A stretch of 64,000 bases of DNA, from positions 28,954,001 through 29,018,000 of the forward strand of contig CM034546.1 in assembly GCA_020055645.1 (NCBI GenBank), in the 5' to 3' direction. The notes beneath the pieces were generated by a model that saw only the letters and a list, made by a program, of their open reading frames with translations, had not been told where the DNA came from and searched no databases. The stretch comes from Tomocerus qinae (taxonomy: Eukaryota; Arthropoda; Collembola; Entomobryomorpha; Tomoceridae). The translations under genes were made by a program, and so were the position numbers. Every line of letters begins with the position of its first letter. The stretch's first letter is position 1. Shown one piece after another: positions 42,823-64,000 of this stretch.

Positions 42823-44414
42823 ATGGAGAAAACATTATCTTTAGAGGAAAATCTACGTGATAGTGGGAAATGGGTTATAATGCCAATGCGAATACTTTCC
42901 TTTTTGCCATTTCCGCTCGATTACATAAATTTTAATAATTCGATCATCAAAAATTTATTTACCTTCCATGGTATGAATAATATAATAATCAATATTATCT
43001 CCATTCTTGCAATTTATGCAGCAAACTTCAGCATGAAATTTGTTTTGACTTCAATAAATATTACTTCATCTACAGAATTGTTAATTTTTACTGTAGTTGG
43101 CCATTTAGCTATTGTATATGGAATCATTTTTCGTGGTGTAGGAATAATTTATGCTGAATCCACTTCCATTCTCTGGAAGAGTACTTGTTCCCGACTTGCT
43201 AAAATTCAGGAATTTACTGGACAAGATTTTTTTCATTCCAGTAATCAAGATTTTAACAAAATAAAGTATCAAATAAGAAATGCAATTATATTTTTCTGTG
43301 TTACTTTGGCTGGTCAATTAATTTCAATGAATTTGCTTTCGTTGCACGACAAAGTACAAGATGGGTTCATTAAAATGTTCGTGCTACAAAGTGGACCATT
43401 GTTTATTCTTATGCTAGTGCAAAGTATTGTTTCATGTTTAAATCCATGCAGTGCTGTGTGGCCTCTTTATTTTATCAAAATATACCAATCCACTCTTAAA
43501 ACTATTTCAAAATATGTCGATGAGTTTACAGTTATATTGGAAAATCCCTTGAGTACAGCTGAAAAAACAAAATTGTCAATCCAAGATGATTTTGTATTTT
43601 TAGCACCTAAAAATGTCGAAGAGTTTGTGATAGAAAGAGTATTTACAAAATCACATAAAACTCCCCATAACGATTTTGAAGGTATTTTCGAAAGAAAATT
43701 GATCGCCGCTATGCAAGCTTATTATGAGACGTTAACAATGATTGACGAATTCCACAGTGCCCTAAGCGTCAACTTACTAATTAATGTAACGCTGTCTTTA
43801 GTAGTTACAATTATTTATGTCTTTTTCTGCATAATTTGGATAATTGAGGCAAAATATCTCTTGTTATCCTTTTGTTTGTCTCCATTTATTGTTCAGGCAG
43901 GTATAATTTACCATTTAATAACAAACTCAAACCAGCTTTACACAATAGGTAAAGTACTACAGCAAAAAATTTGCAACGCACCAAAATGTCTGAATATCAA
44001 TCTACCACCATCTATTCAAATAAGGGTAAGCACTAAAATTTTGACATTTATTGATTTACATCTGCATATGCAATTATGTCAAATTATAATTCAAGTTATA
44101 TAATATTAAAAATAATTATTTCATTTATTTCCTTGCAGATTCAAATCTTTTCAGCAAATGTATCAAAAAATCCTGTAAAAGTTTCTCCAGGCTCATTTTT
44201 TGAAATGAATCATTCATTACTTACATCAGTAAGGAAAATATTAATGTTTTTTAAAACTCTATGCTGTGCTTAATATTAAACATGTACACCTACATGTCTT
44301 CATCGCTTTGCTCGATTTCAGATTTGTGCAACCTGTGCAACTTATATAATTATTCTGATGCAGTTCAGGCAAGGAGAGACTGACATGAATTTAGGAAATT
44401 GTACTGCAACTTGA
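42823..44414 (+). CDS. B2: gustatory receptor (about 461 aa)
   Basis: Exons 42823-44025, 44139-44228 and 44322-44414, all phase 0; donors GTAAGC and GTAAGG, acceptors CCTTGCAG and GATTTCAG. The in-frame triplet nine bases upstream is TTG, so the start is the ATG giving MEKTLSLEENL. The landmarks are GKWVIMPMRILSFLPFPLDY, STELLIFTVVGHLAIVYG, SCLNPCSAVWPLYFIKIYQ, a charged loop of about 70 residues, and AMQAYYETLTMIDEFHSALS. The last two exons give SANVSKNPVKVSPGSFFEMN and then CATCATYIIILMQFRQGE, carrying TYhhhhhQF. Intact. Closest to B1, although 20 kb and five A genes now lie between them. Confidence 0.9.
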
Positions 44415-45699: not shown

Positions 45700-47270
45700 A
45701 TGGATAAGACAATGTCTATTGAAGATATTCTACTAAATAGTGGGAAATGGGTGATATTTCCAATGCGGTTACTTTCGTTTTTACCATTCTCACTTAATAA
45801 ACCAGCCTTTGAAAAGTCATTTATCAAAAATATTTTTAGCTGTGGTGGTTTAATTAACATAGTATTTAATATTTTTTCTATTTTTTCAATTTACGCTGCC
45901 GGATTTAGCATGAAATACATTTTGACATCAGTAAAAATCTCTTCATCTACTGAGTTGTTAATTTTCACAGCGATGGCTTATTTATCTATAGCATTTGGGA
46001 TCGTCTTTCGTGTTATAGGCATAGTTTATGCCGAACCCATGTTTAATTTATGGAAAAGTACTTGTTTTAGACTTGACAAAATTCAAAAACTTACAGAACA
46101 AGATTTTTTTCAACCAACCAATCAGTTTCTTAAACCGATAAAGGCCCAAACAAGAAATATTGTTCTATTTTTCTGTTTTTGGCAATTTGGTCAAATAATT
46201 GCTTGTAATTTAATGCCAGTTGATGAAAAGCAAGAGGAAGAGTATGAAAGACTTTTACTTGTTGATAATCAACCATTTTTAATTTTAATGATATTCCAAG
46301 GCATGACTCAAAGCTTACAGCCATGCACAGCCGTTTGGGCAGTTTACTTCATTAAAATATACCAATCTATTCTAAATTCAATTTCACAATATGTCGATGA
46401 ATATTCTGTCCTTCTTGACAACTTTTTGATTGAAAATGAAAAGAATAATAAATTTTTATGGCAGAAACGGGAACATTTATTAGTGCCACAAAATGTTGAA
46501 AACATTGTGATTGAAAGGATATATAAAAAACCTCAGAAAATGCTTGCAGATAATTTTGAAGACTTTTTTGAACGGAAACTCATAAATTCCATGAAATCAT
46601 ATTATGAGACTTTGACAATGATTGACGAATTTCATGGAGCCCTTAGCATTAATATGCTCGTTAATATAACTATCAGTTTGGTGGTTACGATTGTTTACGT
46701 CTTTTTCTTCATATGTTGGACGATAGAAGGAAAATATTATTTGCTCTCTTTTTGTTTGTTTCCTATTATTGTAAATGCAGGAATAATTTATCATTTAGTC
46801 GAAAACTCGAATAATCTTTCTCACACTGGAAAAATCCTACTACAAAAAATTTGCACGGCTCCAGCATCTACTAAAGATTCAAAGCTTCGACCATCTACTC
46901 AAATAATGGTTAGTATAAAATATTGTCGGGACCATTAAGAAAATTTTAAAGTTACATTATAATACTAATACGAACGTTACCTACATGAAATTTTTTTTCT
47001 CAGATTCAAACGTTTTCAGCAAATGTATCAAAAAATCCAGTAAAAGTTTCTCCAGGCTCATTTTTTGAAATGAATCATTCACTACTAACATCGGTAAGTA
47101 AAATATCTCAAAATATTGCAAAAAGTGTATTCTTTATACTAAGGACTTGACTCAAAGCATATTAATGATTATTTTAGATTGGTGCAACTTGTGCAACGTA
47201 CATAATAATCTTAATGCAATTCAAACAAGGAGAAGTAGATGGGAAATCTTCAAATTGTTCTCTGTCATGA
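45700..47270 (+). CDS. B3: gustatory receptor, divergent B member (about 463 aa)
   Basis: Exons 45700-46908, 47004-47093 and 47178-47270, phase 0, donors GTTAGT and GTAAGT, acceptors TTTCTCAG and TATTTTAG. The ATG gives MDKTMSIEDILLNSGKWVIF; the codon upstream in frame is TTG. It keeps STELLIFTAMAYLSIAFG, SMKSYYETLTMIDEFHGALS and the TM7 exon ATCATYIIILMQFKQGE, so it is a GR, but it differs most from the other four (IEGKYYLLSFCLFPIIVNAG, LQPCTAVWAVYF instead of LNPCSAVWPLYF). All decayed B pieces near 50.6, 53.1, 59.3 and 62.1 kb resemble B3 more than B4/B5, which shows that B3-type genes were once more numerous here. Its 3' end faces the FkbM gene. Confidence 0.9.
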
Positions 47271-47645
47271 ATTTATTTCGGATTTCTAAAAAGTGAATAC
47301 ATCTGTGTCATACATTACATTTAACATCAAATCCAAATGACTCGTGTATGAATTGTGTACAGGCCATTATTATTAGTGTCATTATATTTAACAAAGGACT
47401 TCTTTTCCAGAAATTGATGTACAAATAATTAAAATCTACAGCCTTCAAACAACATTTCTGTGCATTATTGTATTTACCTTAGTTTAAATAAATTTCTTAA
47501 AGTCGTGCAATAATAAGGGTGGGCTTTCCTTTCAAAAACAATACGATGTCTGAGACTCCACAAACATGCAGTTCTATTGTTCTCGAAAGAAATGAAACAC
47601 TTTCTTCATTGTCCGACTCAATGAATGAATGTATTAACTAAGACT
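47271..47645. other. Spacer between convergent B3 and FkbM1
   Basis: Holds the two 3' untranslated regions. The sequence after B3 (TTTATTTCGGATTTCTAAAA and on) recurs after B4 (about 53290) and B5 (about 62280) and marks the copied block. Confidence 0.6.
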
Positions 47646-49277
47646 TTATTTAAGGATTGAACTGTGAGCATAGATGAAGTCGATGGAAGTCTGTCCTTTA
47701 AGTTGATAATTTTTGGATTCCATAAAGTCTTTAACGGCTTGTTGATTTTCTGGTGATAACATGTGAAACTCAATGGAGAAAACCTTAAAATAAAAATATT
47801 TAACAATCAAATAAATAAATAACTGCAGCATCAATTCAGATGCCTACTTGACATTAAATGAAATAATTGTTTCCTTAAAAAATTATGATTGGGTTATTTC
47901 TATCCTATGGAGATTCCACTAGCGTTACTCAACTTGCCTTAATTTGTAGCCGTTCAAAAGGTATCGATTGCACAACACTCAATTCCAGTCCCTCCACATC
48001 CAAACTAAAATAGTCCACAACGTCAACACCAATTGAAGAAATTATTGAGTAAATAGGAAAACATTGAACTTCGAAAGTCGTCCAATTCTTTGTAGATAAA
48101 GTAGAACCACCCACTCTACTGGCCACGTCATAGTTATCTGCATGACTGAAATTCGCCTACAAATAAAATTTTGGTTCATACTATACTTGGGATAGATCCT
48201 AGCACACCATTCTAGCACACTGACTGCGTAAGCATATAACTAATTATATCTAGCACACTTTCCTAGCAAAATTATAAACTGTGCTAGGGTATATAACTAA
48301 TTATATCTTGCACACTTTTACTACACAATTTACTCAAGCACTATAAATTGTGCTAAAATGTAACCAGTTACATCCTGGCACATTTTCACTGCACAATTGG
48401 TCAGATAGGGTGGTTAGAATATAACTGATTCTATTCTAGCACAACTTATAAGTATGCTAGAACATAACTAGTTATATCCTAGCACAAACTTAGTGCTACA
48501 AAATTGTGCTATGGTGTAACCCAGGAGCTTTGGATACTGGGAACAACTTTGTACAAACGTTTTTGCGAAATTCAGGTGTGTCATTTAAAGAGGTCGTTTT
48601 TCCCACTGCATCCATTTCTGAAATGTATTAAATAAAGTTTACCAGTTGAGGAGTCCTTAATGGAGAAAGACAGGCATCGGATAGCCATGCTTTTCTGTTC
48701 TTTCTATTTAAATGTGGATAAGTCATAGGATCTCCTTCAATAAGAATTCCAGTCCAGTTATACTTTCTCTCTAAGGTTAAAGTGTTTGAACCATATTCAC
48801 CATTATAGGCTCCTGCTTCTACAAAAAATCCTCCAGTCTGTTCAAAATGAATATTAATCGTCAAAATAGGATAGCATAAAAAATACACTCTAAATAGTTT
48901 TAAAAATTGGATGTTACCATGTTTTTGAGAATTCTTAAGGCAATTTGATATTGTCCACCCGTAGGATTATCGTTATCAGAGAGACCATGATCTTTATTCG
49001 GATCATTAAGATTGTACTCTTTTGTTGAAGGTGGCACGATGTGATGGACTCTAATGTACTTCCACAATAAAGGATCATCTTGCATCAAGTATCCCAATTG
49101 TTCAGCATTTAGCAAACCCGTGTCTAGTATAGGCTGTATGAAACGGTATTGAATGCGTTTTAAATGTCCGTTTCCATACGAGGAAAGGAAAAAATAAAAT
49201 GATGCCACTACACAAGAAAACAAACAAAGTTTAGTCACTGTTGGGTTTCTTTTTGAGGAAAAAATTGTAGAAATCAT
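47646..49277 (-). CDS. FkbM1: type II membrane protein with FkbM methyltransferase domain (303 aa)
   Basis: Four exons on the minus strand, all phase 0: 49277-48918, 48837-48643, 48156-47938, 47783-47646. The start ATG gives MISTIFSSKRNPTVTKL followed by one hydrophobic anchor (about residues 15-33, SCVVASFYFFLSSYG), so the protein should be membrane-bound with its domain in the lumen or outside. The FkbM core follows: FFVEAGAYNGEYGSNT (SAM-binding motif I), LIEGDPMTYPHL, ANFSHADNYDVASR, DYFSLDVEGLELSVV (the D-x-EG-x-E motif), ending FHMLSPENQQAVKDFME and YAHSSILK. This fits the arthropod FkbM proteins related to Drosophila Star. Whether it methylates anything is unknown. Intron 3 uses a GC donor (AAG then GCAAGT) where FkbM2 has GT. 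Intron 2 holds a transposable element. Confidence 0.85.
48184..48526. mobile_element. CTAGCAC-repeat TIR element in FkbM1 intron 2
   Basis: Ends are inverted copies of GGGATAGATCCTAGCAC / GTAACCCAGG type and the body is packed with alternating CTAGCACA and TGTGCTA words separated by about 25-45 bp (ATATAACTAATTATAT between). Two further copies sit at the same place in the FkbM2 intron and in the deleted FkbM copy. This copy is the most diverged and its target duplication cannot be seen. Confidence 0.75.
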
Positions 49278-49465: not shown

Positions 49466-50422
49466 GGTGTCACGTAAACTCGTCCAAGTAAACTGGTCTT
49501 TAGAGTCAAACGTAAACTGGTCTTGCTAAATACCAACTGGTCCTATGCCAAAAGTAAACTGGTCTTGGTCAATTACCAACTGGTCCTATGCCAAAAAGTA
49601 AACTGGTCTTGGTCAATTACCAACTGGTCCTATGCCAAATGTAAACTGGTCTTAGTCAATTACCAACTGGTCCTCCCGCATTAGTAAACTGGTCTTTCTA
49701 AAATAAGTAAACGTGAAATAAGTGAACTACCACATATTGAGACATACACCGCATTTTTATTAGGAATTTTTTTAATTAAGTATCAATCAACAATTGAATG
49801 GGGATGGTATTATAAGTCTCTATGGTACTTTTAATTTGCGCGTCTAAATTTATGTATCTAGCTTTCCTTCCTTTCCATCTGAAAGTGCCTATTAATGGCA
49901 TAGCCTTAAACCATTTATCCTCTTCAAGTTGTAATTTATGTAAAAATCTCCAAAACATAGGGTGTTTGCACCGAAATCTGACACCTACCAAGGGATGATA
50001 TCCCTCCGCACTGTTGGTAGTACGAGGAATGCCTTATAAAACCCTATCTCTAACGTTCCATTCCATACCATACCATATACTTCAACTCATCAAACTTAAA
50101 GATACTAGGCGCTTATTTTCATGGGAAGAACAATCATAGTGTTTGACCAAGACCAGTTTACTTTTGGCATAGGACCAGTTGGTAATTGACCAAGACCAGT
50201 TTACTAATGCGGGAGGACCAGTTGGTAATTGACCAAGACCAGTTTACTTTTGGCATAGGACCAGTTGGTAATTGACCAAGACCAGTTTACTAATGCGGGA
50301 GGACCAGTTGGTAATTGACCAAGACCAGTTTACTAACGCGGGAGGACCAGTTGGTAATTGACCAAGACCAGTTTACTTTATACCTAAAATACCAGTTTAC
50401 TAGGACCAGTTTACATAGAACC
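49466..50422. mobile_element. Foldback / Mutator-like element, 957 bp, 9-bp duplication
   Basis: Two long inverted arms (about 49466-49710 and 50130-50422) are each built from tandem units of about 42-45 bp: AGTAAACTGGTCTTGGTCAA then TTACCAACTGGTCCTATGCC on the left and the reverse complement on the right. The flanks are ATTATTTAT on both sides (49457-49465 and 50423-50431), a 9-bp target duplication. Long TIRs made of subrepeats plus a 9-bp duplication is the layout of Drosophila FB elements and of some Mutator-like elements. The centre carries a transposase fragment on the minus strand. Confidence 0.9.
49776..50034 (-). pseudogene. C-terminal fragment of a MULE-type transposase
   Basis: The frame reads GIPRTTNSAEGYHPLVGVRF, then CKHPMFWRFLHKLQLEEDKW, and ends PIQLLIDT with a stop. 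The order PRTTNxxEGxH, then HPxxWxFLxxLQxEE, is what I know from the C-terminal part of transposases of Mutator-like elements that often accompany FLYWCH domains. A stop precedes GIPRT, and the catalytic core is absent, so the element cannot move itself. The fragment fits the 9-bp target duplication of the element around it. Confidence 0.7.
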
Positions 50423-50589
50423 ATTATTTATACCTATTGCCATCGCAGCGAGATGAGATGACTAGATTAGAACATAAATTCATTTCCACGTACTTTGTTT
50501 ATAATCCCATTCCGCATAGTTTAATGACCTTGTAACCTACAATCCTGTATGTCCACATTATGTCGTGCAAACAAATAATTCTAATTATT

Positions 50590-50665
50590 ATGCCAAATCA
50601 GAATCTACTGAGTTGTTAATTTTCACCAATGTAATCCAAACAAGGAGAAACAGACAAGAAACCAA
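50590..50665 (+). pseudogene. Scrap of a B-family receptor
   Basis: GAATCTACTGAGTTGTTAAT then TTTCACC matches the exon-1 stretch for STELLIFT (closest to B3), and directly after it CAAACAAGGAGAAACAGACA matches the last exon (QFKQGE). The gene's middle is missing. The flanking 50430-50590 matches 59005-59165, so this scrap and the larger one at 59165 are copies of one dead gene. Confidence 0.7.
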
Positions 50666-51307
50666 CAAATTGGTCTTTATCATTAAAACTGCGTATATAA
50701 ATTATAAATACTGGCAATTAAGTACATCGAAAATAACAATTTTTTTAATTTTACGTCTAAAGTAGGGAACAAAAAAGGTACTCATTTTTTACAATAAAGT
50801 GAAAACGAATGACTTTTTTTAATGCAGTCCTTTTTACTTTTTTGTCTTATTTACATGTAATGTGGAGGTAAATTCTGCTACATCAAAAAAGGTAATAGAC
50901 AAAATATGAAAATATAGTCAGACAGTGGGTACAAAACATTTCCATAGCTAATTTTAACAATTAGTGAAGAGAGAATAGATGTCTACCCATTTAACAACTA
51001 TTTTAATCCTATGTGCTGAAATAAAGGTTTTATAACAATTAACTATATATAATTAGCCGTTAACATCTTTTCATAGAATAAATAATGGACAGACAATGAA
51101 AATATACTCAGAAACAGTGTGGGATAAAACATTTCAATATAGCTACTGTAATTGAGGAAAAGTACAGCAATTTATATTATAGCTTGATAATAATGCAACT
51201 TGCTAAAACCAATTAATGGAATTGGCTATAGGTACTTGGTATTCGGTGCAGTATACAAATGATATTATGCTACTGAATTAAATCTATTTTTAAAAAGACA
51301 ATATAAT

Positions 51308-51325
51308 AATTAACAATATTAGTTG
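51308..51325 (+). promoter_or_regulatory. Conserved upstream motif of B4
   Basis: AATTAACAATATTAGTTG, 178 bp before the ATG, preceded by TTTAAAAAGACAATATAAT as in B5. A wider stretch back to about 51165 (CCAATTAATGGAATTGGC, GGTACTTGGTATTCGGTGCA) is also common to B2, B4 and B5. Confidence 0.4.
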
Positions 51326-51485
51326 TAGGACATTTTGTTATATTATGAAGTGTTGAGTAAATAAATATTTAATTAAAGTTGCCTCAAAACATACGGACTT
51401 AAATATAGTGTCGGTTAGTTTCTAATGCAGGCAGTTGTGAGCTTTTCAATTCCGTTTCTGCAAATTTGACAAGTAATTTGATAAA

Positions 51486-53050
51486 ATGGAGAAAAGAGTA
51501 TTTTTAGAGGAAAATTTACTTGATAGTGGAAAATGGGTTATAATCCCAATGCGAATACTTTCTTTTTTACCATTTCCACTTAGTAAATCGGATTTTGAAA
51601 ATTCTTTCGTCAAAAATTTCTTTAGCTTCCGTGGTATGATTAATACTGTATTCAATATTTGCTCCATTCTTGCAATTTACTCTGCACATATTAGCATGGA
51701 AATCGTTTTGACTTCAATAAATATTACTTCATCTACAGAGTTGTTAATTTTTACTGTAGTTGGTCATTTAGCTGTTGTATATGGAATCGTTTTTAGAGGT
51801 GTAGGAATAGTTTATGCTGAATCCACATCCAATTTCTGGAAAAGTACTTGTTCCAGACTTGCTAAAATTCAGGAAATTACTGAACAAGATTTTTTTCATT
51901 CCAGTAATCAATATTTTAAGCCAATAAAGTATCAAATAAGAAATACAATTATATTTTTCAGTGGTACCATTTCTGGTCAACTAATTGCCACGGGTTCACT
52001 TTCGTCGCAGAGTAGAGTACAAGAAAGATTTGATAAGACGTTCGTGTTTCAAAGTGTCCCATTGTTAATAATTATTATGGTCTACAGTATCCTTTCATGT
52101 TTAAATTCATGCAGTGCTGTGTGGCCTCTTTATTTTATTAAAATATACCAATCCACTCTAAAAACAGTTTCAAACTATGTCGATAAATTTTCAGTTGCAA
52201 CTGAAAATCCCTTGAGTAAAACCGAAAAAAAGAAATTGTCAAACCGAGACGATTTTTTATTTACACTGCCTAAAAATGTCGAAGATATTGTTATAGAAAG
52301 AGTATTTAGAAAATCTAATAAAACTCACCAAAACAATTTCGAAGATATATTTGAAAGGAAATTGATCGCTGCTATGCAAGCTTATTATGAGACGTTGAAA
52401 ATGATTGACGAATTCCACGGTGCTCTCAGTACCAATTTATTAATTAACATAACGTTTTGCTTAGTTCTTACAATTATTTATGCTTTTTTCATCATAATTT
52501 GGATTGTAGAGGGAAAATACAATTTGCTATTATTTTCTTTGTTCCCAATTGTCAAACATGCTAGCGTAATTTATCATTTAGTAACTAACTCAAATGAACT
52601 TAATAAAGCTGGCAATGTACTACAGCAAAAAATTTGTAACGCACAAAAATGTGGAAATATTAATCTTCAACCATCTATTCAGCTAAGGGTAACTACATTT
52701 TAAAATTTGGTCATTTATTTATTTTATTTAGTCAGTTATAAAATATCAAAAATATTTTTATTTCTACAGATTCAAATCTTTTCAGCAAACGTATCAAAAA
52801 ATCCTATAAAAATTTCTCCAGGCTCATTTTTTGAAATGAATCATTCGTTATTGACATCGGTATAAGAAAAACATTAAACTCTACCCATGAAATACGTTAT
52901 ATAAGACTAGACATTGACCCAGTTTATTTTTCTACTATTATTATTACTCTATTTCAGATTTGTGCAACCTGTGCAACCTATATAATCATACTGATGCAGT
53001 TCAGGCAAGGAGAAACTGACATGAAATTAGAAAATTGTACTGCAACTTGA
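51486..53050 (+). CDS. B4: gustatory receptor (about 461 aa)
   Basis: Exons 51486-52688, 52770-52859 and 52958-53050, phase 0; donors GTAACT and GTATAA, acceptors TTCTACAG and ATTTCAG. The start is ATG (MEKRVFLEENLLDSGKWVI). It is intact, with STELLIFTVVGHLAVVYG, SCLNSCSAVWPLYFIKIYQ, AMQAYYETLKMIDEFHGALS and the TM7 end TYIIILMQFRQGETD. B4 and B5 are very close throughout, including introns and flanks, and differ from B1/B2 by FPFPLSKSDFE and TISGQLI. It is thus one half of a recent block duplication. Likely receptor role as for the other GRs. Confidence 0.9.
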
Positions 53051-53072
53051 AAACGGGTTTCATTTTTGGTTT

Positions 53073-53286
53073 CATCATTCATTATTGACATCGGTAAGTA
53101 GAATATCTCAAAATATTACAAGGACATTAATTGTTTGTTCCACAAGTACTTGACTTAATGCATTTCTAAATGACAATTTTAGATTGATATGCAACTTGTA
53201 CAACTGCAACGCAGATAATAATCTTAATGCTATTTAAACAGGAAAAAGTTGACGGGAAAATAAAATTGTTCTCTGCCATGAATTGA
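53073..53286 (+). pseudogene. 3' remnant of a B3-type receptor after B4
   Basis: CATCATTCATTATTGACATC then GGTAAGTA equals the end of exon 2 with its donor; after about 90 bp a damaged last exon follows (ATTGATATGCAACTTGTACA, then CAACGCAGATAATAATCTTA, then CTCTGCCATGAATTGA). The tail sequence and the 3' flank match those of B3, not of B4. Only about 120 nt of coding sequence remain. Confidence 0.8.
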
Positions 53287-53743
53287 ATTTATTTCGGATT
53301 TCTAAGAAGTGAATAGTGTTTGCGTCATACATCGCATTAAACATCAAATAGAAGTGTTTCGTGTATGAATTTGTGTATAAGACATTATTATTGTCATCAT
53401 ATTTCACCAATAGCAGATTTTAGTGAATTAATGTACATACAAAAACTACAGCCTTCAGCAAACATTTTTACGTATTGTCTTCAAGTCTTCATCTTAGTTT
53501 GACTGCATTCATTAAATAACTCGAATAATGAAAAGGGCGTACCCTTCCTTCCGAGAACAATGCGAAGTGCGCGGTCTGAGACTCCTCACCGAACAGTTCG
53601 CGAACTAGTCCCATTGTTCCCAAATCCACGACCTATTGTAACAACTATTGTATTTGTAAAACTTCTAACATTGAAATTAAATAAAACCTTATGTAAGTAA
53701 TTACACGTTAAGTTGTTTCACACGGATGACAATGTTTATTGGA

Positions 53744-54898
53744 TACCTGGGTTATATCTTATAGCAAACCCCTCACCCCCTAGCAAACTGTGCTAGAATA
53801 TAACCTGTTATATTCTAGCACACTTTCCTAGCATCCTTATAAACTTAAACTGTGCTATGATATAACTAGCTGTATTCTAGCACTTTTTACTTCCTAATTT
53901 CCTAAGGCATTAAATTGCGCTAAAATGTAACCAGTTATTATCCTAGCACAGTTATACAGCACAATGGGCCAGAAAGTGGGCTAGAATATAACCAGTAATA
54001 TTATATTCTATGTATGAAAGTGTTGACCTAAAGTTTAACTTATATAATTTTATGAAAAGCGCATTAATGTAAAAAAACTGACTATAGTTCCCTTCAACGA
54101 AAGTAGCTAAAATCGATTAAAAAGCTAAACACGCTAATAAAATTCTCATCTCCTTACGGCGCGTGCGAAACGGATAGATTTTTGCGGCGCGAAAGGCTTA
54201 TATATCGCCGAAACTTTATCCACTCCAACGTGGATAAAAAAAGAGATTATTTTACCTTTCCGTTACAAATTTAAATTCCCAGTCTCGAAATACTTCGTGT
54301 GTGTTTTTAAAAAACCTCGTTTTCTGGCATTTACCTCTAATTTCCCAGTATGTCAGTTCGTTCAAAAAAACCGAAGATTACTTTGGACTCTGGAGCAAAT
54401 TAAGAAAATTTAGCAAATGGTAGTACATAAATACAAATACAGTAGTGACTTAACTAATTATTATTGGTCTTGATTGGTAGGTGTTGCCACGAATGACATT
54501 TGCGAGAAATATGAAGGCTGAGTTACAATTCGATTGTACCGATATTCAACTAAAGAACGGACTATGCAACCTTATTAAAAATTGTCATTAACTATTATTA
54601 GCCGTTAATAAAAAATACCCTTCAACGACCTAGCTAAATAATCTGTTATATCCAATAAGCTAAAATAGCTGTTGCCCTGATACTGAAGGGTGCTTATATA
54701 TTTTAAAATAATGTTTATCTAACTATACCATGTAATGTATCGGGCTGGCGGGACCTATGTTCGATTTAATAAATACATACATACATACAACCAGTAATGT
54801 CCTAGCACACTTTATAAGTATGCTAGAACATAACTAGTTATGTTCTAACACTGCTAGCACAGAGTGATTTAGAAGTATGCTAGGATCTAACCCAGGTA
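53744..54898. mobile_element. CTAGCAC-repeat TIR element, split by a retroposon
   Basis: Second copy of the element found in the FkbM introns: starts TACCTGGGTTATATC, ends GATCTAACCCAGGTA, followed by CATTGGA as at the FkbM2 copy. Removing the 789-bp insertion and its 10-bp duplication leaves about 356 bp, the size of the FkbM2 copy (363 bp). Confidence 0.8.
54000..54788. mobile_element. Retroposon, 789 bp, with CATA tail
   Basis: Inserted between two copies of AACCAGTAAT (53990-53999 and 54789-54798), a 10-bp target duplication. The right end is AATAAATACATACATACATA, a simple-sequence tail as left by target-primed reverse transcription, which sets the orientation to plus. No long open frame; this could be a SINE or the 3' part of a LINE. 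The undisturbed site is visible in the FkbM2 intron (about 63520-63535). Confidence 0.82.
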
Positions 54899-54993
54899 CA
54901 TTGGATGCTGCACCAACTTTATTCAGATAGGTTCTCAAAAAATTTTTGAAGTTGATTCCCCACACTGCACAGTCCACTGAAATGTATTAATAA

Positions 54994-55040
54994 AGTTTAC
55001 CAGTTGAGGAGTACTTAATGTAGAAAGACAAATATTGGGT
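54994..55040 (-). pseudogene. Relic of a third FkbM gene
   Basis: The minus strand keeps the donor end of FkbM exon 2 (CCTCAACTG then GTAAAC) and about 40 nt of coding sequence, then breaks off into the tandem repeat at 55045. The exons expected to the left, equivalent to 62745-63222, are missing: 3'-flank sequence (about 53520-53700) is joined straight to the intron flank (53715). Only the intron element and this scrap survive. Confidence 0.75.
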
Positions 55041-55044
55041 TAGA

Positions 55045-55640
55045 GTTAATGAGATTTTCCCCAATTTTGATTTTATTTTCATTTTGATATTCATGCATAT
55101 TCCCAAATATCAAACCACAATAATCTTCAATTCGACAGATAAGTTAGAATACTGCTACCTCTGGGGTTTGAAGAACGGCCAACGAACTATAAACTAAGTA
55201 CCAAGAGTATAGATTATGTCATAGCGAAATTAGGAGTTTCCGGATTTTGATTTTATTTTGATTTTGAGGTTTATGCATATTTCATAATGTCAAACTACAA
55301 TATACTTCAAGTCAATAGAAACGTTGAAATGAGAACTAACCTTGGAATTTAAAGAAGCGAAAACCAACTGCGGAAAACGAGTATAAATATTGTGGTAGGG
55401 TTAATGAGATTTTCCCCAATTTTGATTTTCTGTTCATTTTGATATTCATGCATATTTCAAAATATCAAACCACAATAATCTTCAATTCGACAGATAAGTT
55501 GGAATACTGCTACCCCTGGGATTTGAAGAAGCGCAAACGAACTATAGACTAAGTACCAAGAGTATAGATTATGTGATAGGGAAATTAGGATTTTCCGGAT
55601 TTTGATTTTATTTTGAGATTTTTTATGTATAAAACAACTT
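55045..55640. repeat. Satellite-like array, about 177-bp unit
   Basis: About 3.3 units. Units start near 55045, 55222, 55400 and 55579 with (T)TA(A/G)GA(G/T)TTTTCC then TTTTGATTTTATTTT, go through TATGCATATTTC and AAACTACAATA, and end in AGTATA-type sequence. Odd and even units differ, so the real period is about 355 bp (for example CAATAATCTTCAATTCGACA at 55111 and 55471). The array cuts off the FkbM relic on its left. Confidence 0.8.
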
Positions 55641-56324
55641 TTTATTAATTTTTGAGAATTATCTAGTTTTTTTGGACAATTAATGGGGATGCTTAAGCAC
55701 CCTAGCACCCCTTAAATACGTCCTTGAATGGGATTGCTCAATAAGTATAATGTTGAAATCTAGGAGAACTGCAGAGTGTCCAAGTCATTTTCGATTATTA
55801 AGATATTTGGACTGCTAAAAACCCTAGTTTAGTCACTTAACATATTATCTTTGCCATTTGCTTCCCGTTATTATTTCTACCTTTATTGACCTAACCTAAT
55901 TAAAAATAAACACATTTACTTGCTTATTAGGCTTTAGCAATAAAACAGTTTATTTTTTATTAGGTTAGGTCAAAAAAGAGTCAAAAATAGTGACGGGAAT
56001 CAACGAGGACAATATATAAAAGTAGTTGGTTCGCTAAACTAGGGGCAACGGGGAGGGGGCATTTGAGGCAACAGGGGCAATCGAGGCAACGAGATCCCAC
56101 TGCCTAAATCTAGCCCTAAATATATCTCAAAGTTGTGTTAACCATTGCTCCTTTCAGCAAAGCTAGTGTAGTCTATTTATGGTGTTTTTATTACAATTAC
56201 ATGCTAAAAAAAGTTAGTCCGCATTTCTTTATATCACAAGTCTGTAATGTAAAGTTCAGTATTTCAATAAATATTTCCCCTGGGAATGCTTTATGAAAAT
56301 CATATCAAATTTTGAAATGAAAAA

Positions 56325-57175
56325 TAGTTTCGGATTTTCCCATTTCCCACCTCATTTTGATAGCCAGTTGGGAAAAGTGGGAAATTACTGGGAAATGAAA
56401 AAAAGTCACGTGAAATGATTTGATTCGCTACGGTAGCCTAGGGCGGCTGTTCTTTTCTGCTGCAAATTAATAGCCATAAACAAAAGTAAATAATTTTGTA
56501 ATTCTGCAATTCAGATGACAAGATCTGCCAATTCCGTACTCCACAGTCTAAGTATAACATTGATTTATTTTCTGTTTTATCAGATTACGTAAAATATGAC
56601 AGAATAAAAATTTGGGATACTCAAGAGTTGCATTAGTGTTGACAAGTGAAGCGAGTAGTACAAGTAATTTGATTTAATATTTACATTTTGTAAATTGGGC
56701 TATGAATTTATACAGCGGAATATTGTCACCTTCTTGACTGCATCTGCAGCAGTGTTTTATATTAATATACATTAATCTGTTTCATCTTTGCATAAGGCAA
56801 CGTAGGAACGATATCCCAGTGACTCAAAGCCCTACATTATCGTTATAATAATTACGTTACCTATACGTAATCATTATTATGCAATAATAATAATTAATTC
56901 AATAATCAGTTATAATTTTTTTACTGCATCTATAAACCACTCTCATTAACATACGAAATGTAAACAAACAAGGATGACTGAAAGAGCACTAAAGCAGTCT
57001 CGTCTCATATGAGACTTCTAGGGGCAGTATTTATATCTTCTGTGTACTAATGTTTCATTTCCCAGTCATTTTTTTCATTTCCCATTTTCCCACCCACTAA
57101 GCCATTTTGATTCCCACTTTTCCCACTGGGAAAATGGGAAGATCCCACTTTTTGATTTCCCACCCGAAACCTTGA
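56325..57175. repeat. Two pieces of GGGAAA-rich MITE family
   Basis: Clusters of TTTCCCATTTCCCAC and GTGGGAAATTACTGGGAAAT at about 56325-56405, and CATTTCCCATTTTCCCACCC to TTTTGATTTCCCACCCGAAA at about 57053-57172, resemble the better-bounded element at 59797-60013. DNA between the two pieces is anonymous AT-rich sequence. Target duplications were not resolved. Confidence 0.55.
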
Positions 57176-57551
57176 ATGAAATGCTGTATTCTGATTGGTC
57201 AATTTCAAAAATGCATCGACCAAATAAAAGCCAGAGATATTTCCGTTTCGATTTGAAAATTATCTCCTTGGGATAATTTAGACAATACACGTAAATTCAT
57301 ATTTTTCAACTTTCGTTTGCGAGTTATTGCACTTTTCCCATGAAATCATTATTGTCTCGTAAGCAGAGGGAAAAATTAGGAATCTAAGTGCAAACTACTA
57401 TAAACTGACATTTTCTGCGTTTTTAGAAACCAATTTTGTTATTCTGCGATCAATGTTCTCTGGCTAGATACAAGTTTTCCTAAATATATACCTTCCTCAT
57501 TTCATTCTCTTCAAAGGCAGCCTTTGCCGCACACGGCTTTTGGTGGTGTTT

Positions 57552-58004
57552 CGTTAGGCAAAATATACCCTGTGTATTAATCAGGGTTAATTTTTGCCTA
57601 CACATTTACACAGGGTTGGGTCGTGGTTAAAACCGTTTTGACCATTTTCGGTCAAAACGGCCCGGTCAAAACGGTCCAAATGTCCTTTTGGGGTACATTG
57701 AGACCCAAGGTAACTTTGACTGCAACAATAAACAACAAATATAACTTTCTAAAGATTGCAGTTAAAAATAGTTAGATTGTGTCATTTTGTAGTTGGATGT
57801 TAGTAGATTAGGGTTTCATTGGTTTTAGGTAATATTTCATTCTCTAAGTATTTTAAATATGCTTTGCTAACCTAAGTAACTGTATACTGATATTTTGACC
57901 GTTTTGGCCGGTTTTAACCGTTTTGACCACCCGGCACGGTCAAAATGCAAAAAAGTGGTCAATTTCCCAACACTGCATTTACACAGGGTATATTTTGGCT
58001 AACG
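57552..58004. mobile_element. Short TIR element hosting a nested MITE
   Basis: The outer ends are inverted 24-mers with one mismatch: CGTTAGGCAAAATATACCCT GTGT at the left and its complement at 57981-58004 at the right. Without the nested hAT element (57611-57975 plus one 8-bp duplication) the outer element is only about 80 bp, close to a pure palindrome. Confidence 0.8.
57611..57975. mobile_element. hAT-type MITE, 365 bp, CAGKGTTGGG ends
   Basis: Left end CAGGGTTGGG, right end CCCAACACTG, flanked by CATTTACA (57603-57610 and 57976-57983), an 8-bp duplication. The inside holds several inverted GACCGTTTTGACC / GGTCAAAACGG words near each end. CAGKGTTGGG termini are typical of hAT elements. 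No coding capacity. Confidence 0.9.
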
Positions 58005-59164
58005 AGAGTAAAATGCTAAACTCTTTCCAACCAGCGTATTTTCTAAATACTGCGACAGGTTCGGAATGAGTTTATTCGGGTAAACTAATGTCTGAGCTGC
58101 TTAGGTTTAAAATAGTTGTCTTTGACATTAAAAACCAATATTTGTACATAAGGTAAAAGGTTGTGGGGTGGTTTAAAGTCTTACCTCGACGAGATCACAT
58201 CCCATAGGTCCGACTAAGCACAGAGCATACTACTTCGGCATCTTTCATCTTTGCATGGCTAGGCTATCAATTTCCGTGGTTGACAGCCCACCACCTAGCT
58301 ATATTTCAGCCATGTCGCCATCGCCATGCAAATGTACCCGAAGATTATGATACTTATAGGAAAAGAGATAGAGAGAGGCAGAAGGAGCAAGGAAGGATAG
58401 CCGTGAAGCGGCTATAATGTTAAGGTATTGCTCATTTAAGTACCATAGGAGTAGGAAAACCAATTGCACTATGGTAATTAATTTACTCATTGAGAGTTTG
58501 GAAGAAAACCTATTCCCAATACCAATGTCAGCCAAGCAACTCCGGGGTGGAATTGGTCTACTAACCTTGCCGTCTAAAGATTGAATACCTTAGCCGGCCG
58601 GCTTGTTGAGCTCGGCTCAATATTTGTACATATTTTTTGAAAAAATTCGTCGTCAGTGTTTATAACTATAACCGGACTCGAATCTCTACTTGTGACTTAA
58701 ATAATACACACTAAAGTAGCTTAATGGTTGGCTATGATGAAAACCGAGTTAAATTTGATATTTCCCATAAGAATTTTAGCTATGGTTACAATGGCTTAAT
58801 TGGCTTGATAAAAATTTAGAATAATTAGGTTAAAATAAGTAAAACATTGACTTTTGCTTAACTCTTTCAACGGACTTGATTGATTTTCCCAATGGAATGA
58901 TACCATTGGGAAAATAAAACAAGCCGAGGTGCAAGGAAATACCAAAATGGAATTATAACTATAAATAGCTAGCTTCATGAAATTTATACATTGTTCGTTT
59001 ATTGCTTATACCTATTGCCATTCCAGCGAGATGAGATGTCTAGGTTAGAAATGGCTTTCCACGTCTTTTGTTCATAATCACATTCCGCATAGTTTAATAA
59101 CCTTATATAACCTATCATCCTGCTTACAAAATATCCTGCCAATACATAATGTTAACTATTAGAA

Positions 59165-59575
59165 TAAATTAGAATCTACTGAGTTGTTAATTTTCACACG
59201 ATAGTTTATTTATTTTATAACGTTTAGCATCATATTTCGTGTTGTAAGCATAGTTTATGCCGAAAGGGAAACCAGAACCCATGTTTAATATTTGGAAAAA
59301 TAGTTGTTCCAGGCTTTAAAAAATCAAAACCTTACAAAAAATAATTTTTTAACCGGCCAAAATACTACTACAGAGAACTAGTACGACTCCAACATCTATA
59401 GAGCATTCAAAACTGTGGACATTTATTCACATAATGGTGAGTATAAAATTTTAAAATATTATCATATAACTATAAAGCATTTTAATAAATGTTTTAATAA
59501 ATTATCATTGTCACAGGAAATAATACATTCTTTCTAGAGTTTCAGACGTTCTCAGCAAATGCAAAGACTTGAACT
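59165..59575 (+). pseudogene. Decayed B3-type receptor
   Basis: In shifted frames one can read STELLIFT, then IIFRVVSIVYAE, EPMFNIWKNSCSRL, KIKTLQK, and after a jump PAKILLQRTSTTPTSIEHSK with a donor GTGAGT at about 59434, followed by FQTFSANA-like sequence near 59540. The order follows B3 (EPMFNLWKSTCFRL) with stops and a large internal deletion. Its left flank is shared with 50430-50590. Confidence 0.85.
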
Positions 59576-59796
59576 GGCAGTGGAAGTACACATTGATTAG
59601 TCAGACGACTGAATGCTCCAGCAGGCCAATGTGGCTGGGATGTGGCCAAACATTTCAATAGCTATTGTATAACAATTAGTGAAGGGCACAGCAATTTACA
59701 TTATAATTTGACAATAGTACCACTTGATGAAACCAATTAATGGAATTGGTTAGGTACTTGGTATTCGGTGCAGCATACAAAATATACTATGGTACT

Positions 59797-60013
59797 CAAT
59801 GTTTCGAGTGGGAAATACCACTAATGGGAAACTTCCCTGGGAAATGTGGATATCAAAATGGACTGGGAAATGGGAAGGGTGGAATAGCGATAAAGAGGGC
59901 TAAAATTGTGCCAACAATCAAATTTTTTTACTTCATTTCCCATTTTCCACAATTTCTGTATTTCACTGACGTCCAACAAAGTGGAGTGGGAAATGGGAAT
60001 ATTCGAAACTCTG
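59797..60013. mobile_element. hAT-type MITE, 217 bp, in the B5 upstream region
   Basis: Ends CAATGTTTCGA and the inverted TTCGAAACTCTG; flanked by ATGGTACT (59789-59796) and ATGGTATT (60014-60021), an 8-bp duplication with one change. The inside is rich in GGGAAATGGGAA and TTTCCCATTTTCC. The uninterrupted site is seen upstream of B4 (around 51264), so the insertion came after the B4/B5 duplication or was absent from the B4 copy. Confidence 0.82.
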
Positions 60014-60054
60014 ATGGTATTGAACTAAATCTGCTTTTAAAAAGACAATATAAT

Positions 60055-60072
60055 AATTAACAATATTAGTTG
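60055..60072 (+). promoter_or_regulatory. Conserved upstream motif of B5
   Basis: AATTAACAATATTAGTTG, identical to the B1 and B4 versions, 201 bp before the ATG. It lies just downstream of the hAT MITE, which separates it from the more distal conserved sequence near 59690-59788. Confidence 0.4.
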
Positions 60073-60255
60073 TAAGATGAATGTTGTTGAATTTTAAATG
60101 TTGTATTATGAAGTGCTAAGTATAAATGTTTAATTACAATTGCTCCAAAACATACGAACTTAAATTTACTAACTGTCGGTTAGTTGGAGCTAATGCAGGC
60201 AATCGTACAATCTTTTCACTTCTGTTTCTGCAAAGTCGACAAGTAATTGGATAAA

Positions 60256-62058
60256 ATGGAGAAAACAGTAACTTTAGAGGAAAATCTACTTGATAGTGGA
60301 AAATGGGTTATAATCCCAATGAGAATACTTTCTTTTTTACCATTTCCACTTAGTAAATCCGATTTTGAAATTTCTTTCGTCAAAAATTTCTTTAGCTTCC
60401 GTGGTATGATTAATACTACGTTCAATATTTGTTCCATTTTTGCAATTTACTCTGCACAGATCAGCATGAAAATCGTTTTGACTTCAATAAATATTACTTC
60501 ATCTACAGAGTTGTTAATTTTTACTGTAGTTGGCCATTTAGCTATTGTATATGGAATCGTTTTTAGAGGTCTAGGAATAGTTTATGCTGAATCCATATCT
60601 AATTTCTGGAAAAGTACTTGTTTAAGAATTGCTAAAATCCAAAAACTTACAGGACAAGATTTGTTTCACCCAAGTAATCAATATTTTATCCCGATGAAAT
60701 CGCAAATAAGAAATACAATTATATTTTTCAGTGGTACCATTTCTGGTCAACTAATTTCAATGGGTTCACTTTCGTCGCAGGGCAGAGTACAAGATGGATT
60801 TGATAAGACGTTCGTGTTTCAAAGTGCCCCATTGTTAATAATTATTATGGCCCACAGTGTCCTTTCATGTTTAAATTCATGCAGTGCTGTGTGGCCTCTT
60901 TATTTTATTAAAATATACCAATCCACACTAAAAACAGTTTCAAACTATGTCGATGAGTTTTCAGATGTAACTGAAAATCCCTTGAGTACAGTAGAAAAAA
61001 AGAAATTTCCAACCCAAAACGGTTTTATATTTTTAGCACCTAAAAATGTCGAAAATATTTTGATAGAAAAAGTAATTAGAAAATCCAATAAAACTCCCCA
61101 AAACGGTTTCCAAGATATTTTCGAAAGGAAATTGATCGCTGCTATGCAAGCTTATTATGAGACGTTGAAAATGATTGACGAATTCCACGGTGCCCTCAGT
61201 ATCAATTTATTAATTAACATAACGTTTTGTTTAGTCCTTACCATTATTTATGTTTTTTTCATCATAATTTGGATTGTAGAGGGAAAATACAATATGATAT
61301 CATTTTGTTTGTTCCCAATTATCGAACATGCTGGTGTAATTTATCACTTAGTAACAAACTCAAATGAACTTTATAAAGCCGGCAAAATGCTACAGCAAAA
61401 AATTTCTAACGCACCAAAATGTGGAAATATTAATCTTCAACCATCTATTCAGCTAAGGGTAACAGCATTTTAAAATTTTGTCATTTATTAATCTGTTTTA
61501 ATTTATTAGGTACCAAGCACGTATCCAGGATTTTGACCTAGGGGGGCCCACCAAAATATATTGATAAAAGCAAGGCACATTCGCGCGAAGCGCGAAATTT
61601 TTTTGGATTTTTAACCTTTTTTGACAAAAAAAACGCCTTTCTCTGGCTACTTAGGGGGGGCCCGGGCCCCCCCGGCCCCCCCTCTGGATACGTGCTTGTT
61701 AGGTACCATTAACAAATTTAGCAATTATTTCAAATTATAAATCAAGTTATAATATGTCAAAAATAATTATTTTTCTACAGATTCAAATCTTTTCAGCAAA
61801 TGTATCAAAAAATCCTATAAAAGTTTCGCCAGGCTCATTTTTTGAAATGAATCATTCATTATTGACATCGGTAAGCAATTTTTTTTAAATTCTACCCATT
61901 TAGTACTTTTTATTAGACATAAACCTAGTTTATTTTCCTTGTATTATTATTTTCATCTTTTTCAGATTTGTGCAACCTGTGCAACTTATATAATCATACT
62001 GATGCAGTTTAGACAAGGAGAAACTGACATTAAATTAGGAAATTGTACAGTAACTTGA
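60256..62058 (+). CDS. B5: gustatory receptor (about 461 aa)
   Basis: Exons 60256-61458, 61781-61870 and 61966-62058, phase 0; donors GTAACA and GTAAGC, acceptors TTCTACAG and TTTTTCAG. The in-frame codon nine bases upstream is TTG, so the ATG giving MEKTVTLEENLLDSGKWVI is taken. Intact; has STELLIFTVVGHLAIVYG, SCLNSCSAVWPLYFIKIYQ, AMQAYYETLKMIDEFHGALS and ends TYIIILMQFRQGETD. Intron 1 is longer than in B4 because of a hAT MITE (61514-61698). Sister of B4. Functional role as for B1, a GR in sensory-cell membrane, from the TM7 signature. Confidence 0.9.
61514..61698. mobile_element. hAT-type MITE, 185 bp, in B5 intron 1
   Basis: Starts CAAGCACGTATCCAG and ends with the exact complement CTGGATACGTGCTTG. 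Flanked by TTAGGTAC (61506-61513 and 61699-61706), a perfect 8-bp duplication. A GC-rich centre (GGGGGGGCCCGGGCCCCCCC) would make a strong hairpin. Clean ends and its absence from B4 indicate a young insertion. Same family as 41087-41251. Confidence 0.93.
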
Positions 62059-62744
62059 AATGTTTTTGGTTTCATCATTCGTTATTGACACCAGTAAGTA
62101 AAATATTTCAAAATATTACAAAGACATCAATTTTTTATGAAGTACTTGACTCAATGCATTTATGATTTATACTAATTTAGATTGTGCAACTTTTGTAACG
62201 TAGGTAATAATCTTAATGCTATTTACACAAGGAGAAGTTGATGAGAAATCAGCAAATTGTTCTCTGTCATGAATTGAATTTATTTCGGATTTCTAAAAAG
62301 TGAATGTGTCTGGATCGTACACCACATTAAACACCAAATCCAAGTGACTCGTCTATGAATTTGTGTGCAAGACATTATTAGTGTCATTATGCATTAGTCA
62401 TTATCTTTAACCATTTGCACTTTTTAGTGAATTAATGTACATATAATAAAAACTACAGCCTTCAACAAACATTCCTTCGCATTGTCTTCATCTTAATTTG
62501 ACTTCATTCATTAAAGTCGAATAATGAAAAGGGTGTACCCTTCCTTCCGAGAACCATGCGATGTGATCACCGAACTAGTTCCATTGTTTCCAAATCCACG
62601 ACCCCTCTGGTCATATTGTTCTCGAAAGAAAAGGTACACCCTTTTTCATTGTTCGATTCCATGAATCCACATAAATTAAGATAAATACAATAACAAATGG
62701 ATGCGGGGTGGTAAAAACTTCTAACATTGGAATTAACTAAAACG
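62059..62744. other. Spacer between B5 and FkbM2
   Basis: Holds the B3-type remnant and the FkbM 3' flank. It aligns with 53051-53700 and partly with 47271-47645. Confidence 0.6.
62070..62272 (+). pseudogene. 3' remnant of a B3-type receptor after B5
   Basis: Same content as the remnant after B4: CATCATTCGTTATTGACACC and a donor-like GTAAGTAAAA, then a damaged last exon from about 62181 (ATTGTGCAACTTTTGTAACG, then GTAATAATCTTAATGCTATT) to CTCTGTCATGA. Small deletions destroy the frame. It shows that the block copied with B5 also contained this dead gene end. Confidence 0.8.
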
Positions 62745-63928
62745 TTATGTAAGGATCGAATTATGAGCATAGATAAAATCAATAACAGTTTGCCCTTTAA
62801 GTTTATAATTTTTGGATTCCATAAAATCTTTAACTGCTTGTTGATTTTCCGGTGATAACATGTGAAACTCAATGGAGAAAACCTTAAAATAAAAATCAAA
62901 TAAATAAATTTGGGTGTCATTTTGACGGAAGGAATAAATTGTTTAAAAACATCATTAAGTCATTCCTATCTGGTAGATATTCAACAAGCGTTACTCAACT
63001 CACCTTAATTTTTAGCCGGTCAAAAGGAATCGAATGCAAAACACTCAATTCCAGTCCCTCCACATCCAAACTAAAATAGTCCACAACGTCAACACCAATA
63101 GAAGAAAGTATTGAGTAAATAGGAAAACATTGAACTTCAAAAGTTGTCCAATTCTTTGTAGCTGAAGTAGGACCACCCACTCTGCTGGCCACGTCATAGT
63201 TATCACCATGACTGAAATTCGCCTGTAAATAAAATTTTGTTAAACACGGATGGCCATGTTCATTGGATAACTGAGTTAGATCCTAGCACACTCCTCATCC
63301 CTCTAGTACACTGTGCTAAGTGCTAGCATATAACTAGTTATATTCTAGCACACTTTCTTAGAACAATTATAAACTTAAACTGTGTTATGATATTAACTAG
63401 CTGTATTCTAGCACTTTTTACTACTTAATTTCCTAAAGCATTAAATTGTGCTAAAATGTAACCAGTTATTATCCTACCACAGTTATACAGCACAATGAGC
63501 CAGAAAGTGGGCTAGAATATAACCAGTAATATCCTAGCACACTTTATAAATATGCTAGAACATAACTAGTTATATCCTCGCACTGCTAGCACAATGTGAT
63601 AGAGAAGTGTGCTAGGATCTAACCCAGGTACATTGGATACTGCACCAAGTTTATTAGGATAGGTTCTCAAAACATTTTAGAGATTATTCCCCCACACTTC
63701 ACTATCCAATGAAATGTAGTAAATATAGTTTACCAGTTGAGGAGTCCTTAATGGAGAAAGACAGGCATCAGATAACCAAGCTTTTCTGTGCTTCCTCTTT
63801 AAATGTGGATAAGTCATAGGATCTCCTTCAATAAGAATTCCAGTCCAGTTATACTTTCTTTCCAAGGTTAAAGTGTTTGAACCATATTCGCCGTTGTAGG
63901 CTCCTGCTTCTACAAAAAATCCTCCAGT
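62745..63928 (-). CDS. FkbM2: FkbM-domain protein, 5' part beyond window
   Basis: Three exons are in the window, all phase 0 and identical in length to FkbM1: 63928-63734, 63222-63004, 62882-62745. Exon 2 codes TGGFFVEAGAYNGEYGSNT, WTGILIEGDPMTYPHL and LSDACLSPLRTPQL; exon 3 codes ANFSHGDNYDVASRVGG, then DYFSLDVEGLELSVL; exon 4 ends YAHNSILT. The SAM-binding motif and the D-x-EG-x-E motif are kept. The last intron has a normal GTGAGT donor. Exon 1 with the membrane anchor should lie just past the right edge, since intron 1 of FkbM1 is only 80 bp. Probable active sister of FkbM1. Confidence 0.83.
63268..63630. mobile_element. CTAGCAC-repeat TIR element in FkbM2 intron 2
   Basis: Best-kept copy: left end TAACTGAGTTAGATCC, right end GGATCTAACCCAGGTA, flanked by CATTGGA on both sides (63261-63267 and 63631-63637; the repeat could be read as up to 9 bp). 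Inside, CTAGCACA and TGTGCTA words alternate about a dozen times. It occupies the same place in FkbM1, so it was inserted before the genes were copied. Confidence 0.82.
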
Positions 63929-64000
63929 CTGTTGAAAATGAAAATTAATCATCAAATTAGTATGGTATAAATAATACACTTTAAATATTTTTAATAATTG

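Follow-up and report, generated by a model that had tools for sequence, protein, structure and literature searches.

The 64,000-nucleotide stretch of Tomocerus qinae DNA analysed here (the window; C1:28954001-29018000 in a genome of 334 Mb and 115 contigs) contains two related blocks in which a receptor gene of the B-type is followed by sequence of an FkbM methyltransferase gene. These blocks are best explained by tandem segmental duplication within a receptor cluster, with the FkbM gene carried along as a bystander; we assign this explanation a probability of roughly 0.83. The original prediction for this locus had proposed that receptor and FkbM genes were duplicated together as a block. The analysis bears this out through a common chimeric junction, dead gene fragments present in both blocks, and concordant divergence of receptors, FkbM sequence and spacers.

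Architecture of the duplicated blocks

Both blocks are located on one contig, 8.8 kb apart: block I covers 50.43-55.03 kb and probably reaches as far as 58.95 kb, and block II covers 59.01-64.8 kb (window coordinates, used throughout unless C1 is given; Table 1). They share the following order: a decayed B3-type receptor, an intact receptor (B4 in block I, B5 in block II), the 3' end of another B3-type receptor and, on the opposite strand, FkbM sequence. The aligned pieces comprise 1489 columns at 88.7% identity (the piece with B4 and B5), 893 columns at 80.0%, 298 at 86.6%, and 247 at 87.0%, with E-values from 3e-83 to 0. The repeated four-part order that had been proposed was thus recovered in both blocks, except that block I holds a mere remnant in place of an FkbM gene. 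The dead B3-type gene placed at the upstream end was recognizable as B3-type sequence, but consists of scraps only: 24 and 59 bp in block I, and about 280 bp, interrupted by stops, in block II.

Right behind the stop codon of B4 and of B5, the end of a B2-type gene is fused to the tail of exon 2 of a B3-type gene. This chimeric junction occurs at the same place in both blocks, at positions 53074 and 62074. Since the junction is equal in the two blocks, the chimeric unit predates their separation. Collinear genes and spacers, shared breakpoints and concordant divergence identify the locus as a tandem segmental duplication. A minisatellite with inverted arms that are up to 94% complementary separates the FkbM1 unit from block I.

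Divergence and relative ages

Three mostly non-coding segments, one being the B3-type 3' end and the other two lying in intron 2 of FkbM, were compared between blocks I and II and the unit of B3 and FkbM1 using Kimura two-parameter (K2P) distances and 1000 bootstraps. Blocks I and II were mutually closest in all three segments (bootstrap support of 0.999, 1.0, and 1.0). The distances between them were 0.155, 0.142, and 0.089, while those from the B3-FkbM1 unit to either block were 0.23-0.31. The values for the two blocks agree with the synonymous divergence (dS) of 0.158 between B4 and B5 and of 0.219 between FkbM1 and FkbM3; dS from B2 to B4 or B5 is about 0.40, and that between B0 and B3 is 0.45. 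The concordance between segments and genes indicates that receptor, FkbM and spacers travelled as one, at a time after the B3-FkbM1 unit had split off.

This unit, at 45.7-49.3 kb, had been regarded as the ancestral arrangement. It is intact and is farther from both blocks than the blocks are from each other. The order B2-B3-FkbM1 at 42.8-49.3 kb, however, resembles a complete unit, and the ancestor may have been composed of a B2-type receptor, a B3-type receptor and FkbM, instead of B3 and FkbM only.

Similarity of blocks I and II could also have arisen by gene conversion between old tandem copies, without any recent block duplication. Conversion would account for the patchy identity, about 79-89% in the larger pieces, and for the uneven conservation of the introns of FkbM1 and FkbM3, with 85% identity in intron 1 (68/80) and just 74% and 69% in introns 2 and 3. 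It is nevertheless improbable, given that the blocks also have their dead fragments, spacers and chimeric junction in common, collinear over about 5 kb and with concordant divergence.

For tandem segmental duplication, we infer the following course of events. The setting would be a large, actively rearranging chemoreceptor cluster, in which such duplication copies DNA irrespective of gene borders. At first, a unit with one or more B3-type receptors and FkbM would have been duplicated (dS and K2P of about 0.22-0.31). One of the copies would then have acquired a B2-type receptor, the ancestor of B4 and B5, between two B3-type genes, which later decayed. A second duplication, of the chimeric array of dead B3, B4/B5 ancestor, B3 3' end and FkbM, would have produced blocks I and II (about 0.09-0.16). 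The FkbM gene would have been a bystander in these events and lost again in block I, while the FkbM copies of the other two units would have been kept by purifying selection on their own, probably membrane-bound, function. Unequal exchange or replication-based tandem duplication may have been the mechanism, and the minisatellite located where block I meets the FkbM1 unit may have facilitated the rearrangement. Joint copying of unrelated neighbours, followed by decay of surplus copies, characterizes bystander genes in tandem segmental duplications, and the locus described here displays no essential difference.

FkbM genes

The proteins encoded by FkbM1 and FkbM3 match PF05050 (Methyltransf_21) with 49.3 bits each (E=8.1e-13 and 8e-13, respectively; curated cut-off 22.7 bits), and the domain spans residues 128-286 in both. 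Exon 3 of FkbM1 has a GC donor, and the last 368 bases of FkbM3 lie past the window end. The two proteins share 94.1% identity, with a dN/dS (ratio of non-synonymous to synonymous divergence) of 0.124. When polarised with four paralogs, the synonymous and non-synonymous changes were 17 and 11 on the FkbM1 branch, 11 and 4 on the FkbM3 branch, and 7 and 6 among those left unassigned. Non-synonymous sites are about 3.7 times as numerous as synonymous ones, so these counts reveal constraint on both copies: FkbM1 and FkbM3 are under purifying selection.

The copy in block I, 'FkbM2', retains 39 coding bases out of 912, of which 30 derive from exon 2 and 9 from exon 4; the presence of a living FkbM gene in this block was rejected on these grounds. 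The palindrome-rich repeat element of intron 2, with repeated palindromes of the type GTGCTAG...AACTAGTT...CTAGCAC, outlived the exons of FkbM2 and extends over 53713-55030. The expectation that all copies carry the same intron element was correct for FkbM1 and FkbM3, where it occupies an identical position; in block I, intron 2 persists in two parts, with about 780 bp of different sequence between them.

FkbM1 and FkbM3 possess one N-terminal hydrophobic stretch, the best 19-residue windows of which start at residues 13-17 (top Kyte-Doolittle mean of 1.78 at residue 13). This suggests that both are probably membrane-anchored, presumably in type II orientation. As judged from sequence alone, they are members of the FkbM family by a domain match above the cut-off and differ from it by the hydrophobic stretch that precedes the domain.

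B-type receptors

Six B-type genes, all on the plus strand, were recognized: B0 at -11.3 kb and B1-B5 within the window. Their spliced proteins have 461-463 amino acids (aa), and none of the six contains internal stops. The sequence TYIIILMQF, present near the C-terminus of all six, fits TYhhhhhQF, the C-terminal motif of the gustatory receptor family. Each of the five spliced proteins scanned (B1-B5; scan at E up to 10) matched Pfam family 7tm_7 (PF08395), with a best E of 3.7e-14; B4 scored 45.6 bits over residues 22-448 (curated cut-off 26.6). The long exon taken singly displayed no match to a receptor family, so that the splice models matter. The B-type proteins thus resemble insect gustatory receptors (PF08395) in domain match, motif, short C-terminal exons and clustered arrangement, but are divergent: a five-protein B-type profile matched no PDB chain below E 0.17, with Gr43a and another gustatory receptor as the top two.

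Intron 1 of B5 contains a 185-bp insertion at 61514-61698 resembling a miniature inverted-repeat transposable element (MITE), with 15-bp perfect terminal inverted repeats and an 8-bp target duplication (TTAGGTAC). We take this element to be hAT-like, judging by its size. It is not present in B4; a similar sequence is located at 41090-41251.

Table 1. Features of the B2-FkbM3 region, with positions in the window
Feature	Position	Strand	Description
Receptor B2	42823..44414	+	3 exons, 461 aa; shares its type with B4 and B5
Receptor B3	45700..47270	+	3 exons (45700-46908, 47004-47093, 47178-47270), 463 aa, intact; GT/AG splice model
FkbM1	47646..49277	-	4 exons (49277-48918, 48837-48643, 48156-47938, 47783-47646), all phase 0, 303 aa, intact
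FkbM1 intron 2	48157..48642	-	Palindrome-rich repeat element
43-bp minisatellite	49507..50379		Two inverted arms (49507-49696, 50143-50377); border of FkbM1 unit and block I
Block I, decayed B3-type scraps and upstream spacer	50428..50686	+	Pieces of exon 1 (24 bp) and exon 3 (59 bp) matching B3; 78.6% identity to 59006-59197
Receptor B4	51486..53050	+	3 exons (51486-52688, 52770-52859, 52958-53050), 461 aa, intact; 7tm_7 E=7.9e-12
Block I, B3-type 3' end	53074..53588	+	Runs from the tail of exon 2 through a decayed exon 3 into the 3' flank; 72.2% identity over 525 columns to B3 (47074-47562)
FkbM2 remnant	53658..55030	-	Not a gene; intron 2 interrupted by about 780 bp
Piece similar to FkbM3 upstream (64489-64795)	58619..58949		73% identity over 334 columns; probable distal end of block I
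Block II, decayed B3-type receptor	59006..59452	+	Middle and end of exon 1, internal stops; matches B3 at 45945-46121 and 46831-46924
Receptor B5	60256..62058	+	3 exons (60256-61458, 61781-61870, 61966-62058), 461 aa, intact
Block II, B3-type 3' end	62074..62565	+	Stop in exon 3; 75.8% identity over 501 columns to B3 (47074-47549)
FkbM3	62745..64368	-	4 exons (64368-64009, 63928-63734, 63222-63004, 62882-62745), all phase 0, 303 aa, intact
FkbM3 intron 2	63223..63733	-	Palindrome-rich repeat element

FkbM genes and receptors elsewhere in the genome

The pairing of receptor and FkbM could also be functional. FkbM1 and FkbM3, as type II membrane proteins, would then aid the exit of neighbouring receptors from the endoplasmic reticulum (ER), and the linkage would be kept by their joint work. 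The precedent is Drosophila Star, which is filed with the FkbM proteins. Those parts of PMC2950126 that deal with Star describe it as a type II membrane protein required for ER exit of Spitz. Compared by layout only, Star as a type II protein (PMC2950126) resembles FkbM1 and FkbM3, in which an N-terminal hydrophobic stretch is likewise followed by the main domain, and by this analogy a role of FkbM in receptor trafficking is conceivable. The purifying selection on FkbM1 and FkbM3 would also suit such a role. The blocks themselves speak for a looser relation, as FkbM2 was lost while the adjacent B4 stayed intact.

The genome was surveyed for further FkbM genes by 82 exon matches to FkbM1 and 31 Pfam matches, which were combined into 40 clusters comprising 49 places beyond the window; 25 of the clusters are on C1. 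The receptor lists are lower bounds, with 106 of 1686 A-like candidates (those resembling the A-type genes described below) and 111 of 247 7tm_7 candidates scored. Eight close B-type relatives (at least 44% identity) were found at six places outside the cluster, and none of the eight had an FkbM match within 433 kb. The idea of a recurrent pair of B-type receptor and FkbM was rejected for this reason. Together with the loss of FkbM2 beside an intact B4, this argues against an obligate partnership. At C1:132.91-133.08 Mb, an array of less closely related B-type genes starts 164 kb from the nearest FkbM. The four FkbM paralogs that were closest by exon 2 identity (C4:9.27, 11.86, and 9.61 Mb; C1:134.44 Mb) had no match to B-type queries or to A-type queries from the window within 10 kb on either side.

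Several observations weigh against purely passive co-duplication. The search for receptor-FkbM pairs elsewhere in the genome, which the original prediction had called for, yielded one clear second case, a block duplication at C1:69085501-69095500 and C1:68629301-68639300. A complete lack of other pairs, which that prediction had named as refuting it, was thus not what the genome showed. This pair is an inverted segmental duplication with pieces of 77-96% identity and about 73% of the stretch aligned. Each copy holds a tandem pair of FkbM genes together with a single, divergently oriented A-like receptor. At C1:134.44 Mb, a weak two-exon receptor-like gene (A-type profile, E 0.022) is located about 4 kb from the FkbM gene. 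The receptor-like gene matched no receptor family in Pfam, and an MGAT4-like gene (E 0.0021, below the cut-off) is present between the two.

Clusters of FkbM genes on C1 were also nominally enriched near A-like receptors relative to uniform placement: 2/25 within 10 kb (expected 0.18, p=0.013), 3/25 within 50 kb (expected 0.62, p=0.023), and 5/25 within 150 kb (expected 1.46, p=0.014), with a p of 0.037 at 20 kb. No significant excess was obtained at 100 kb (3/25, expected 1.03, p=0.08). After addition of the 7tm_7 matches, p was 0.025, 0.068, 0.24, and 0.09 at 10, 50, 100, and 150 kb, respectively, that is, below 0.05 at 10 kb alone. Both cases within 10 kb derive from one duplication, the paralogous pair at C1:68.63/69.09 Mb.

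Gene placement is not uniform, so the protein kinases of C1 served as a control. With all listed receptors, there was no significant excess of FkbM clusters over kinase clusters at 10 kb (2/25 vs 0/54, p=0.097), 100 kb (3/25 vs 6/54, p=0.59), or 150 kb (5/25 vs 9/54, p=0.47). The same was true for A-like receptors alone at 10 kb (2/25 vs 0/54, p=0.097), 50 kb (3/25 vs 1/54, p=0.091), and 150 kb (5/25 vs 6/54, p=0.23). With either set of receptors, the FkbM share was above the kinase share at every distance, never significantly so. A genome-wide association of FkbM and receptors was not accepted, as it was nominal relative to uniform placement and no distance gave a p below 0.05 relative to kinases. 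The incomplete receptor lists result in low power, and a modest association would be compatible with these data.

The second block, for its part, differs from the first in receptor type and in its FkbM genes. The latter are distant subfamily members, with 46-48% identity to FkbM1 in exon 2 and 37-38% in exon 3. The A-like receptor shares 28% identity with the window A-type genes in the long exon and 37% in the first exon. Kinase matches at C1:68.39 and 68.79 Mb have identical scores, which suggests that the duplicated region is larger than the blocks.

Taken over the eight B-type relatives, the loss of FkbM2 and the comparison with kinases (p of 0.09 to 0.59), a functional link between FkbM and receptors is unsupported, and retention of the linkage through joint work is distinctly unlikely. 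Passive pairing, which had been named as a possibility from the start, is the better-supported reading. It is just as doubtful that membrane-bound FkbM proteins are dedicated arthropod chemoreceptor helpers, such as trafficking chaperones or modifiers, that were repeatedly kept beside receptors of different types and co-duplicated with them at two loci. Searches of one library of papers for FkbM together with gustatory receptors, for FkbM methyltransferases in Collembola, and for a tie of Star, Rhomboid and Spitz to FkbM found no paper; among those it returned for FkbM methyltransferases in arthropods, none dealt with receptor pairing, as judged by title. Finally, tandem near-repeats are error-prone in assembly, but it is very hard to believe that the blocks are uncollapsed alleles or a misassembly, as their larger pieces differ by 11-20%, they carry different insertions (the MITE-like element is confined to B5), FkbM is a remnant in one and intact in the other, and both are on a single contig at a distance of 8.8 kb.

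A-type genes and other neighbours

The window and its flanks are packed with receptor-like genes of two types. In addition to the B-type, the minus strand between about -17.5 and 40 kb carries the two-exon A-type, with one fragment and 14 members that are genes or near-complete copies. The A-type family is very large, with 1686 first-look candidates, of which 106 were scored; the 121 listed matches are all on C1 (window 493-39916; C1:28.80-28.99 Mb). With an E-value limit of 1, the whole A-type model gave no match in Pfam. Exon 2 of the first of nine members had no Pfam family match, and exon 2 of all nine, searched up to E 10, gave just four one-member matches (best E 0.036). No meaningful match was found in PDB. 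The label 'receptor' rests on array, hydrophobicity and resemblance, and the A-type possibly represents an undescribed, highly diverged chemoreceptor family.

Diverged receptor-like frames continue past FkbM3, at 68726-71021 and 75156-90824 (two detected by the A-type profile, E 5e-6 and 0.001, and the rest by eye). FkbM3 is therefore probably located inside the receptor cluster, not at its edge. A glycosyltransferase-92 gene (66787-67575, E 2.2e-24), 2.4 kb past FkbM3, is another unrelated gene in this cluster and was counted in favour of passive duplication.

DUF4855 is a mostly bacterial domain. A 798-aa open frame with this domain (E 7.6e-22) was identified at C1:134.44 Mb (L047:1701-4094), with horizontal transfer as a possible origin.

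Implications for chemoreceptor evolution

If the FkbM passenger did help the receptors, it would add a new component to taste and smell in arthropods; the evidence does not require that. The locus provides a clean, datable case of chemoreceptor cluster growth, in which chimeric blocks were copied whole, receptors died and were replaced, and an unrelated passenger was amplified.

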